From assembly GCF_003264855.1 (NCBI RefSeq), contig NZ_NFZS01000001.1:682001-746000 (forward strand): DNA of 64,000 nt, read 5' to 3'. A model generated the notes under the pieces. It did not search any database. It saw only the letters and a list, made by a program, of their open reading frames with translations, and had not been told where the DNA came from. Source of the stretch: Dyella jiangningensis. Its GTDB lineage: Bacteria; Pseudomonadota; Gammaproteobacteria; Xanthomonadales; Rhodanobacteraceae. The number at the start of each line of letters is the position of its first letter. The stretch's first letter is position 1. This document shows, one piece after another, positions 15,730 to 59,300 of the stretch. The position numbers and the translations under genes are program-made.

Positions 15730-15771
15730 GGCGTAGCTCCGGGTGTTGCGACCAGAAGGCCGCATCGTTGT

Positions 15772-15875
15772 CCGGGCGCCGTTGCAAAGGAAATCCATCG
15801 AGCCTGGCCGGTGGGCGGGAACAGCACAGGCATGTGCGGTCTCGCCCGTGTCCGGTCGCAGCGCCCCTCGACGGG
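15772..15875 (-). promoter_or_regulatory. SAH riboswitch upstream of ahcY
   Basis: Read on the minus strand, the leader carries the conserved pieces of the SAH (ahcY) riboswitch in order: GTCGAGGGGCGCTGCGAC, a variable GC-rich hairpin, GGCCAGGCTCGAT, and AACGGCGCCCG. P1 forms from TCGAG / CTCGA, and the pseudoknot from GGGCGC / GCGCCC. It ends about 42 bases before the ahcY ATG. This family turns on ahcY when S-adenosylhomocysteine accumulates. Recognition is from memory of the consensus. Confidence 0.88.
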
Positions 15876-53486: not shown

Positions 53487-54248
53487 ATGAAACGGCTGGC
53501 CGTGATCCTTTCCGGCCTGCTGCTAGCCCTCCCGGCAGCGGCGGCAGATTATGTCGCCTTGCCGGGAGGCAGCTTTTCCAGCGTCCTTCCGGCGGATGGC
53601 AAAGTGGCGCCTGCGCGTATAGCGCCCTTCCATCTGCGTACCGAGCCGGTCACCAACGCCGAGTTCCTGGCGTTCACGCAGAAACACCCGGCATGGCGCC
53701 GTGATCGCGTGCCAGCTCTGTTTGCCGACGCCGGATACCTTTCCCACTGGGCCGGCGACGGCTCGCTGGGCGCGGCGATATCGCCTTCACAGCCGGTCAC
53801 CCGCGTCAGTTGGTTTGCAGCGGAAGCTTATTGCGAGAGCGAACAGGCGCGCCTTCCCACCTGGTATGAGTGGGAGTATGCGGCCGCCGCCGACAACCAG
53901 CGTGCCGATGCGCGAAACGATCCTGCATGGCGAGAGCGTGTGCTGATCTGGTACAGCCGTCCATCGAATGCGCCGCTGCCGGAGATCGGTGGAGCTGCCG
54001 ACGTCCACGGCGTGCGCGACCTCAATGGCGTCGTATGGGAATGGGTCGATGACTTCAATGCGCTGCTGGTGGGCAGCGATAGCCGCGACCAGGATGGCGC
54101 AGACAAATTCAAGTTCTGCGGCGCCGGCGCGCTCAATATGCAGGAGAAGGAGAACTACGCCACGCTGATGCGCGTCGCCATGTTGTCCTCGCTCAAGGCA
54201 TCCAACACCACCACGAATCTTGGTTTCCGCTGTGCAAAGTCCGACTGA
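53487..54248 (+). CDS. SUMF1-type (formylglycine-generating enzyme family) protein, NirV-like
   Basis: A 253-residue exported protein starting one base after nirK. A signal peptide (1-20) is followed by a formylglycine-generating-enzyme fold: LPGGSFSS, PVTNAEFLAFTQ, PVTRVSWFAAEAYCESEQARLPT with the WEYAAAA block, and DLNGVVWEWVDDF. The last residues TTTNLGFRCAKS are typical. The NirV proteins next to nirK in denitrifiers belong to this family; their role in NirK maturation is presumed, not proven. Confidence 0.85.
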   Translation: MKRLAVILSGLLLALPAAAADYVALPGGSFSSVLPADGKVAPARIAPFHLRTEPVTNAEFLAFTQKHPAWRRDRVPALFADAGYLSHWAGDGSLGAAISPSQPVTRVSWFAAEAYCESEQARLPTWYEWEYAAAADNQRADARNDPAWRERVLIWYSRPSNAPLPEIGGAADVHGVRDLNGVVWEWVDDFNALLVGSDSRDQDGADKFKFCGAGALNMQEKENYATLMRVAMLSSLKASNTTTNLGFRCAKSD

Positions 54249-56491: not shown

Positions 56492-56797
56492 ATGAACACG
56501 TCTACCCATACCTGCCACTGCCGTGATGCGGTCAGGCCGGCGGCCACGGCCTTGCTCGATCTTCGCTCCCTGCAACCGCCGGAGCCGATGCGGCAGGCAT
56601 TGGCGGCGGCCGATCGATTGGCGCCAGGTGAAGTGCTGGAGGTTCTGACCCCGCTGATGCCGATGCCCCTGTTGTCCGCCCTGGCCGAGCGCGGGTTCCA
56701 GGCACAAGCGACCATGCTTCCCGAAGGCGGCGCGAGAGTGGCCATTCGTTGCATTCCGCAGTGGGCGTCGACCAGTCATGGCCCGACTGGCGCTTGA
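56492..56797 (+). CDS. DUF2249-domain protein
   Basis: A 101-residue TusA-like fold: LDLRSLQPPEPMRQALAAAD, LAPGEVLEVLTPLMPMPLLSALAERGF. Proteins of this family are frequent in denitrification and low-oxygen clusters, where their role is unknown. His8 and Cys9 near the start (HTCHC) might bind metal. It overlaps the next gene by 20 bases. Confidence 0.8.
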   Translation: MNTSTHTCHCRDAVRPAATALLDLRSLQPPEPMRQALAAADRLAPGEVLEVLTPLMPMPLLSALAERGFQAQATMLPEGGARVAIRCIPQWASTSHGPTGA

Positions 56798-58034
56798 TCA
56801 GGCACCAGTCGTCTCGCTTCCGCGCCGGTTTCTGTGCTCCATGCCGATCTGGGGCGTGCTGGCGGGGCTGCTGCTGGTGATCGACGGCGATAGCCTGGTG
56901 CGGTCTCGTTGGCATCCCGGTACGTTGGCCCTCGTGCATACCTTCACCCTGGGTGTGCTTGGCAATGCGATGTTCGGCAGCCTGCTGCAATTCCTGCCCG
57001 CCGCCGCCGGTGTTCCGCTTCGCGTCGGCCGGCTGGGCGCCTGGATGCACATCGCATTGAACACGGGTGTGCTGCTGCTGGTGGCTGGCTTCCATTTCGG
57101 GTCGGCCGTGTTGCTGTCGCTTGCAGGGCTGCTGTTGCCGTTGGCTTTTCTGGCCTTGGTGGGCATGACCTTGCCCGCCGTATGCCGAGCCGCGGGCCAG
57201 CGGTTGCTGCGTGCGGGTATCGGCGGCTCCCTCGTGTTCGGGCTGATCACGGCTGTGCTTGGCGGCGCTTTGGCGCTGTGTAGCGGTGGCCGGTTGGCGC
57301 TGGTGATGCCGCCCTGGGTGGATGTCCACGCCTCGCTCGGTGTGCTTGGCTGGGTGATATTGCTACTGGCCAGCGTGGGACGCGTGGTGATGCCCATGTT
57401 CCAGGGAACCGGCATGAGCTCGGTGAAGTGGCATGGGGTTTGGTTCGCCAGCCTCGTCGTGCTGTTGACGCTTGCTTCTGCGTGGCGCTTGGTGGGCGAT
57501 GGCGAGGCCGGTTTGCAGGCGACACTGGCATGCTTCGGCGTGTCGTTCGCACTCACGGTGGTATGGCTGCAGAAGCGCACGGCGGCGGCGCGTCGCGGTC
57601 CGTTGTGGTGGAGCTGGCGAGCAGGTGCGCTCGTGCTGGTTGCCTCGGCAGTGGCACTGCCCTGGCAGATCCGCGAGCCGTTGCTTGCCGCTGCGCTCGC
57701 CCTGGGTGTGGCGTTGCCCCTGCTGGTGGTCGGCATGGCGTTGGAAATCGTGGCCTTCCTCGGTTGGATCGAGCTGCACCGGCGTGTTGGTCGGGGCGTG
57801 CAGTTGCCTGGCGTGCAGCGGTTGATGCCTGCACGCGAACGTGGTGCGGCAGTCATGGCTCTGGGGAGCGCTGGCGCGGCCGTCGTGCTGGCAACCGTAC
57901 ATCCGGATGCCTGGCTCGCCCGAGCTGCCGGGCTGCTTCAGTGCATGGCATGGGGAGGCGTTGCAGCCGTCTTCCACGGCACACGTCGGCGCGTGCAGCG
58001 GTTCCTGCGTGATCAATGGAAATCGGAGCGATGA
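56778..58034 (+). CDS. NnrS-like / haem-copper-like multi-helix membrane protein
   Basis: A 418-residue protein with about 12 hydrophobic segments. Two blocks have conserved His-rich features: LVHTFTLGVLGNAMFGSLLQ and DVHASLGVLGWVILLLASVG. They resemble those of NnrS, a haem/copper membrane protein of nitric-oxide-exposed bacteria. It lies in an operon with DUF2249, DGC and UbiT, and its TGA overlaps the next start (ATGA). The exact family is uncertain. Confidence 0.6.
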   Translation: MARLALDQAPVVSLPRRFLCSMPIWGVLAGLLLVIDGDSLVRSRWHPGTLALVHTFTLGVLGNAMFGSLLQFLPAAAGVPLRVGRLGAWMHIALNTGVLLLVAGFHFGSAVLLSLAGLLLPLAFLALVGMTLPAVCRAAGQRLLRAGIGGSLVFGLITAVLGGALALCSGGRLALVMPPWVDVHASLGVLGWVILLLASVGRVVMPMFQGTGMSSVKWHGVWFASLVVLLTLASAWRLVGDGEAGLQATLACFGVSFALTVVWLQKRTAAARRGPLWWSWRAGALVLVASAVALPWQIREPLLAAALALGVALPLLVVGMALEIVAFLGWIELHRRVGRGVQLPGVQRLMPARERGAAVMALGSAGAAVVLATVHPDAWLARAAGLLQCMAWGGVAAVFHGTRRRVQRFLRDQWKSER

Positions 58035-58438
58035 ACATGCCCAAGGGAATGCTCGTCTACGCCTGCTCGGGATGATCGAGCGCGGCCCAGATGGCCAATC
58101 ACTTCGCGCTGCGCCTCGATCGCGAGCGCGTGGCGAAGATGTCTTGCATCGCCGGCGTGGGCGGTGGCGTGCCTGGACTGGTGCGCACGGCGCAAAGCGG
58201 ACGCCGGATACTCGCGCTCGATGGATGCGAGATGCGTTGCGCCGTCGCCTGCTTGGCAAGGGCGGGCGTGGTCGCCGACGCGCATCTTGTGCTGTCCGAG
58301 CATGGCGTGAAGAAACGCCAGCATGTCGACTTCGAACCGGATGAGGCGAGGCGTGTGTACGTCGACGCCGTGCTGCCCGCCGCGCACGCCCTGGCCGCTG
58401 TCGATGAGGAGAGAAACCATGTTGTCGCTTCCGCGTGA
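58031..58438 (+). pseudogene. DGC-domain putative zinc-binding protein, interrupted by in-frame TGA
   Basis: Frame and length give a 135-residue protein of the DGC family with one TGA at 58073-58075. It reads MLVYACSG, TGA, SSAAQMANHFALRLD, AKMSCIAGVGGGVPGLV and LDGCEMRCAVACL. In relatives the TGA position is Cys in CSGC. So either TGC changed to TGA (mutation or sequencing error), or the codon is recoded, possibly as selenocysteine. A stem GATCGAG...CTCGATC follows immediately. The ATG overlaps the previous stop; the 3' end overlaps the next gene. Confidence 0.75.
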
Positions 58439-59300
58439 GCGCTGGTTGCTGGATCGTGCGCGCGGTGCCATCGATGGTGTCGACGACGGCTTGATCCTGC
58501 TGTTGGCGGCACGGCGACGCCTCGTGCACATCGTGGCGTGGTTGAAGGCGCGCACCGGCATGACGGGGCGCGATCCCCATCGCGAGAAATACATGCATGC
58601 GCGTGCGCAGACGCTTGCTTCTCGCGTGGGTGTGCCGGATGCCACGGTGCGCACATTGGTGAACCTCGCCATTGACGATGCCTGCATGCAGCAAGGCATC
58701 GCTGGCGACGTTCACGGCCTTGATGTTGGTCAGGGCAGGGTGGGAATGAGCCGGTCGATGATCCCGCCCATGCCGATCTCCCTTGCTCCCTCCACGCTGG
58801 CGCCGCACCTGCTGCGCTGGATGCCGCCGCCGCGTCGCGTGGCACCGCTGGTTCGTGCCATCCCGGGCCGCTGGCAGCATGCCCTGCTGGAGAAGGCGAT
58901 CAGCCGCGTACTGGCCTTGCCCCTCCGCGATGGTTCGCTCGATTTCATGAAGGGGCGTCGCCTCGGTATCGAAGTCAGCGATCTCGGTCTTCGTTGGGTG
59001 CTGACCTGGGCGGACGGAGCCCTGCGCGTGATCACCGATGAACCCGAAGCCAGCGTGCGCGGTAGCGCTACGGATCTGCTCCTGCTGGCGGGGCGACGGG
59101 AAGATGCCGACACGCTGTTCTTCCAGCGCGCGCTCGTCCTCACCGGTGATACCGAACTTGGGCTGACGGCGCGCAATCTGCTTGAGCGCCTGCCCTGGGA
59201 AGACGTCCCGCTAGGGCTGCGCATCGCGCTTCATCGAGGTGCCGGCTTTGCTCGCATGGCGCGAGAAGCGCATCGCGAGCGATTCGACGGATCGTATTGA
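58419..59300 (+). CDS. ubiT: Chorismate-mutase-like domain fused to UbiT (SCP2) domain
   Basis: A 293-residue fusion. Residues about 5-90 look like an AroQ-type chorismate mutase (RARGAIDGVDDGLILLLAARRRLV, then K in WLKART, RDPHREKYM and CMQQG; AroQ-like Arg, Lys and Gln positions are present). Residues about 110-290 are the SCP2-type UbiT: LDFMKGRRLGIEVSDLGLRW and ITDEPEASVRGSATDLLLLA. UbiT carries lipid intermediates in O2-independent ubiquinone synthesis with UbiU and UbiV. An internal ATG at 58746 could make UbiT alone. The start at 58419 has GGAGAG. The fused first domain is unusual. Confidence 0.78.
   Translation: MLSLPRERWLLDRARGAIDGVDDGLILLLAARRRLVHIVAWLKARTGMTGRDPHREKYMHARAQTLASRVGVPDATVRTLVNLAIDDACMQQGIAGDVHGLDVGQGRVGMSRSMIPPMPISLAPSTLAPHLLRWMPPPRRVAPLVRAIPGRWQHALLEKAISRVLALPLRDGSLDFMKGRRLGIEVSDLGLRWVLTWADGALRVITDEPEASVRGSATDLLLLAGRREDADTLFFQRALVLTGDTELGLTARNLLERLPWEDVPLGLRIALHRGAGFARMAREAHRERFDGSY

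Follow-up and report, generated by a model that had tools for sequence, protein, structure and literature searches.

The DGC-family gene of Dyella jiangningensis carries an in-frame TGA at codon 15, in place of the second cysteine of the CSGC motif, and the best reading of this codon is that it arose by a recent nonsense mutation or else reflects an assembly error; that the gene is a newborn selenoprotein is unlikely. A recent nonsense mutation is the favoured reading, with a probability of about 0.75, a figure which, like the weights behind the ordering of the alternatives, is a judgement and was not computed.

Identity of the DGC gene and its interrupted frame

The gene lies in a 64,000-nucleotide stretch of the genome (the window), whose numbering is used throughout (Table 1). 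When the TGA is read as a residue, the translated frame matches the PF08859 DGC profile at 119.9 bits (E 6.1e-35, profile positions 1-103 of 106) against a cut-off of 27 bits. A six-frame search of the whole genome returns this segment as the sole DGC match, with one TGA inside and a score of 117.8 bits when the stop is counted. The gene therefore passes the profile cut-off of the family, while its frame is interrupted at codon 15. The original prediction that the TGA stands in frame with open sequence on both flanks is confirmed by the sequence and by a frame check across the full gene.

Table 1. Features at the DGC locus, in window coordinates.
Feature	Coordinates	Strand	Remarks
Upstream gene	56778..58034	+	418 aa; shares 4 bases with the DGC start
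DGC (PF08859) gene, interrupted	58031..58438	+	136 codons including in-frame TGA and final stop; profile match
In-frame TGA	58073..58075	+	codon 15, second Cys of CSGC
Hairpin after the TGA	58074..58121	+	like hairpins in Cys-bearing genus relatives; feature of the coding sequence, putative SECIS at most
Open frame left after the TGA, from first ATG	58091..58438	+	115 aa, without CSGC
Chorismate mutase II domain fused to UbiT/SCP2	58419..59300	+	open frame that starts within the DGC 3' end; GAGGAG ahead

The stop codon among DGC homologues

DGC scores above the cut-off in 83 distinct genomes, and a TGA at the position of codon 15 occurs only in the genome of the window; the other TGA-bearing homologues that a selenoprotein family might offer were thus found in 0 of the 82 other DGC genomes. 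Sampling covered five overlapping sets, in which DGC-bearing genomes number 37/233 (family), 31/368 (order), 15/369 (class), 4/385 (another class of the phylum, one below cut-off) and 21/398 (phylum, one below cut-off); for DGC genomes whose locus was not fetched, the absence of a stop is taken from the search output alone. Among the first loci inspected letter by letter, 31 of 32 have Cys, the thirty-second being the window itself. Specifically, the nearest genus relatives (G049, G044, G060 and G054) keep the locus in the same order and encode Cys at the TGA position, so that the disabling change is missing from close relatives, as is characteristic of a pseudogene. A search of phage records for DGC gave no match.

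The TGA is aligned to a conserved cysteine, as a selenocysteine codon would be, and the earlier statement that relatives have Cys at this position holds for the homologues read, with one exception. Alignments A2 and A3 and a set of 53 distinct sequences were chosen by a pattern demanding CSGC or a stop, so that the constancy of Cys within them is by construction. Among loci left out by this pattern and read later, L084, L103 and L091 have CSGC, L095 is divergent, and L088 has CSGA; the CSGC site was not found in L092 and L121. The exception, L088 (genome G352), is a DGC homologue with no inner stop and Ala at the second Cys of the motif, and it indicates that this cysteine may not be strictly required.

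A scan of a genome contig collection with the UGA form of the pattern gave two matches, both due to chance, in a collection that may omit the window's own genome. The sensitivity of the Cys form is 39 of 50 distinct sites, with 25/25 recovered in the family and 14/25 outside it. Some published selenoprotein candidates, in the portion of PMC12013277 drawn on here, likewise have no UGA-bearing homologues elsewhere.

Two other stop-bearing matches were rejected as parallels. In L093 (G242) the DGC copy has decayed, its TGA and TAA standing at codons other than this one and its CSGC motif being incomplete; as an instance of DGC decay elsewhere it fits the nonsense reading. L117 (G915) falls below the cut-off and seems, by eye, to lie inside another gene. 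As a separate observation, G049 carries two equal-scoring DGC copies (C1:141353-141661 and C1:5193357-5193665) in a genome rated 9% contaminated.

Mutational routes, constraint and assembly quality

The nearest relative, G049, is 88.7% identical over 8 kb, and its DGC gene offers 32 one-base routes to a stop. Ten of these yield TGA, and since six of the ten lie at Cys codons, a TGA at a Cys needs no special cause; among all one-base routes to any stop in the same gene, Cys codons account for 12-19%.

Selection was estimated as dN/dS across five genus members under two tree shapes. The host branch of DGC has an omega of 0.244 or 0.227, where the background value is 0.094 or 0.092, and the other single branches tested have values of 0.116, 0.119 and 0.084. 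Setting the host branch to omega = 1 gives 2dlnL of 3.68 or 4.19, at the edge of rejection, and equality with the background gives 2.51 or 2.25. The rise on the host branch is not special to DGC, as the upstream gene (0.296 vs 0.150), the downstream gene (0.334 vs 0.139) and a ketosynthase (0.070 vs 0.027) show it too. Within the 53 distinct sequences, the host protein has no deviation at columns that all the others share, nor at those with conservation of at least 95%. Downstream of the TGA it carries a Gly to Arg change (Gly is shared by 47 of the 52 other sequences and Arg by none of them) and a Glu to Lys change (Glu in 48 of 52), which would fit loosened constraint.

With the rest of the frame intact, the sequence family-like and the branch dN/dS well below 1, a pseudogene must be recent. 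The selection data are compatible with a recent stop, with a product still in use, or with an error in the sequence. The last of these, an assembly or base-calling error in a strain whose gene is intact and encodes Cys, is the strongest of the alternatives, though considerably less probable than a real stop: the TGA occurs in a single genome, the gene looks intact outside that codon and the branch is not neutral, but the assembly consists of 7 contigs, with completeness rated at 99.99% and contamination at 0.08%, and the genes directly upstream and downstream have no inner stop. A recent nonsense mutation is further favoured because the loss of a dispensable gene is a common event, and DGC is dispensable in the genus, where 7 of 20 genomes have it.

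Assessment of a selenocysteine reading

The original prediction offered two readings of the TGA, a one-base change from TGC and recoding as selenocysteine. The first is the better supported; for the second, the decoding machinery is present, and the positive tests failed, with no other TGA-bearing homologue found in the genomes searched, an unspecific hairpin and no SECIS match. In its full form the selenocysteine reading supposes a selenoprotein at birth, in which one base change placed a UGA at a redox-type Cys codon, before a ready-made coding hairpin and decoding by SelB kept the gene, yielding a CSGU protein unique to the species and the first selenoprotein of the DGC family. We regard this as improbable.

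The absence of selenocysteine machinery had been named as grounds for dismissing recoding, and selA, selB, selC and selD are all present. A single cluster contains tRNA-Sec (selC; found by ARAGORN, and separately at 80.1 bits), SelD (496.9 bits), SelB (405.5 bits), SelA (573.3 bits) and FdhE, and a formate dehydrogenase alpha gene (TIGR01553) with one in-frame TGA lies near it. A CxxC-type motif in an organism that decodes selenocysteine is the usual place for that residue, and the UGA of the DGC gene falls at the conserved Cys of such a motif, in an intact frame with dN/dS below 1. The host selenocysteine system is nevertheless accounted for by formate dehydrogenase without DGC, since tRNA-Sec and a UGA-bearing formate dehydrogenase both occur in 20 of 20 genus genomes and DGC in 7 of 20.

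The predicted stem itself exists, pairing GATCGAG (58074-58080) with CTCGATC (58115-58121) and CGCGGC (58081-58086) with GCTGCG (58108-58113, one G-U), and two bases of the TGA take part in it. For the 53 bases that start at the TGA the folding energy is -23.7 kcal/mol (z -2.16), and 7 of 200 shuffles equal or better this, making the fold mildly unusual only. The same stretch in Cys-bearing genus relatives folds at -28.7 (G060), -25.6 (G054), -19.1 (G044) and -14.9 kcal/mol (G049), the last reaching -19.6 kcal/mol with the stop written in. Among the 32 Cys homologues folded, 10 have a stronger fold than the DGC site and 22 a weaker one. The hairpin is therefore no novelty of the window, though the nearest relative has a weaker one.

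The bacterial SECIS rule, as given in the portion of PMC13188914 used here, asks for a loop 3-9 bases long with G in its first two places, an upper stem of 4-16 pairs, a spacing of 16-37 and an energy of at most -7.5. Applied in a simplified fold form, with the stem-length demand dropped, the rule is passed by the DGC site (loop GCCAAUCA, spacing 18, -18.8 kcal/mol), which formally favours recoding, but it is unspecific, being passed also by 610 of the 1513 TGA triplets of the window (40%) and by 4 of the 7 distinct Cys relatives folded. In a strict form requiring an unbroken stem of at least 4 pairs, the DGC site has no hairpin and the formate dehydrogenase SECIS has one; this form is not leaned on, as the bare upper stem of the formate dehydrogenase SECIS, at -6.2 kcal/mol, would miss the energy bound as applied.

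Rfam SECIS families find nothing at the DGC site at E values up to 10. A covariance model, R1, was built from seven formate dehydrogenase SECIS and recovers elements outside the model at 80.2 (L098), 76.3 (L097) and 55.6 bits (L100, which shares its genome with L096, a member of R1). At the DGC site R1 scores 1.6 bits (E 7.6), below the 2.4 bits that it gives elsewhere in the 601 bases examined; across the whole window it gives three weak matches, none at the DGC site. Part of what R1 measures is the coding sequence of formate dehydrogenase, and SECIS of bacteria vary much between genes, so that this result is strong, not final. A model-recognised SECIS that Cys homologues lack, the mark of a selenoprotein gene, is accordingly not seen at the DGC site, with the same reservation that SECIS differ between genes. 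The suggestion that the hairpin serves as a SECIS, put forward as suggestive only, is not borne out: it is recognised neither by Rfam nor by R1, like hairpins occur in Cys homologues, and the loose rule is unspecific.

The selenocysteine reading is disfavoured because it needs a new selenoprotein in one species and a hairpin that does not rise above background. More generally, selenocysteine genes, a Cys-aligned TGA and a stable hairpin together make weak evidence for a selenoprotein, since most one-base TGA routes in this Cys-bearing, GC-rich gene are Cys codons and 40% of the window's TGA triplets fit the loose SECIS rule. Were the selenocysteine reading true, the locus would present a selenoprotein born by a single change ahead of a ready-made hairpin.

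Least probable of all is continued function, whether by readthrough that inserts an ordinary amino acid at the UGA or by a possible restart at the putative start codon at 58091, for although this ATG lies 15 bases past the TGA at the head of the remaining open frame and L088 has Ala at the TGA position, no clear ribosome-binding sequence is seen by eye ahead of 58091, and a restart would remove predicted strand 1 and the adjoining CSGC, as judged from the model of the relative L010.

Genomic neighbourhood and consequences of the stop

The DGC gene sits among genes of anaerobic respiration, comprising a copper nitrite reductase that includes a cytochrome c domain, the chorismate mutase-UbiT fusion, UbiV and UbiU. 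At E 0.001 neither Pfam nor NCBIfam matches the upstream gene, which is presumably NnrS-like. In the downstream product, PF01817 (chorismate mutase type II) covers residues 15-91 and NF047962 (UbiT/SCP2) residues 146-261, while every NCBIfam chorismate mutase model scores under its own cut-off. The position of this fusion near UbiV and UbiU possibly links chorismate use to oxygen-independent ubiquinone synthesis. Two further features were observed in the window. The protein encoded at 53487-54248, between the nitrite reductase and a gene of 187 aa that is presumably SCO-like, has weak NCBIfam matches to EgtB and SenA, far under cut-off, and an SAH riboswitch lies at 15767-15875 on the minus strand (56 bits).

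Under the nonsense reading, an AnvM-type DGC gene near the nitrite reductase and the oxygen-independent ubiquinone genes would have acquired its codon-15 stop, probably at a late point of the branch towards Dyella jiangningensis. Translation would then end after 14 residues and the CSGC-bearing protein would not be made, leaving at best a remnant of 115 aa restarted at 58091. Such a loss need not harm the genes on either side, whose frames are open, the downstream one having its own GAGGAG.

Comparison with known systems

The closest case within the same genome is formate dehydrogenase alpha, which shares with DGC an in-frame TGA. The two differ in that the formate dehydrogenase TGA is present in 20/20 genus genomes, its SECIS is recognised by Rfam SECIS_3 at 81.9 bits, and the sequence past its UGA is near-identical across the 20 genomes. 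Selenoproteins with a CxxU Cys/Sec pair resemble the host gene in having a UGA aligned to the conserved Cys of a CxxC motif in the presence of selenocysteine genes; the DGC site differs in having neither a recognised SECIS nor a second UGA homologue. A word search of PMC13188914, a 2026 review on prokaryotic selenoproteins, finds neither 'DGC' nor 'zinc-binding' in its main text, and a literature search in one paper collection returned nothing joining the DGC domain with a selenoprotein and nothing naming PF08859.

For the fold of the intact protein, a confident structure model of the relative L010 (pLDDT 95.9, pTM 0.88) predicts an alpha/beta architecture with CSGC directly after strand 1. 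Among solved structures there was no sequence match (best E 0.16), nor any fold match at E <= 0.001.

One named relative is AnvM (PA3880) of Pseudomonas aeruginosa, which, in the portion of PMC6650552 consulted, is reported to interact with Anr and MvfR and to matter in anaerobic conditions; the same portion reports no significant Zn, Cu or Fe in AnvM obtained from dissolved inclusion bodies. The cysteines, taken with AnvM, would suggest a metal- or redox-linked regulatory role for the intact protein. The host gene departs from AnvM and the rest of PF08859 in that its frame is cut at codon 15 and the family protein is probably not made. It otherwise resembles them, sharing the CSGC-, MSC- and DGC-type motifs that accompany its profile match and showing 65% identity to a plasmid gene that is annotated anvM, and its anaerobic-respiration neighbours agree with the anaerobic role that this portion of PMC6650552 reports for AnvM.
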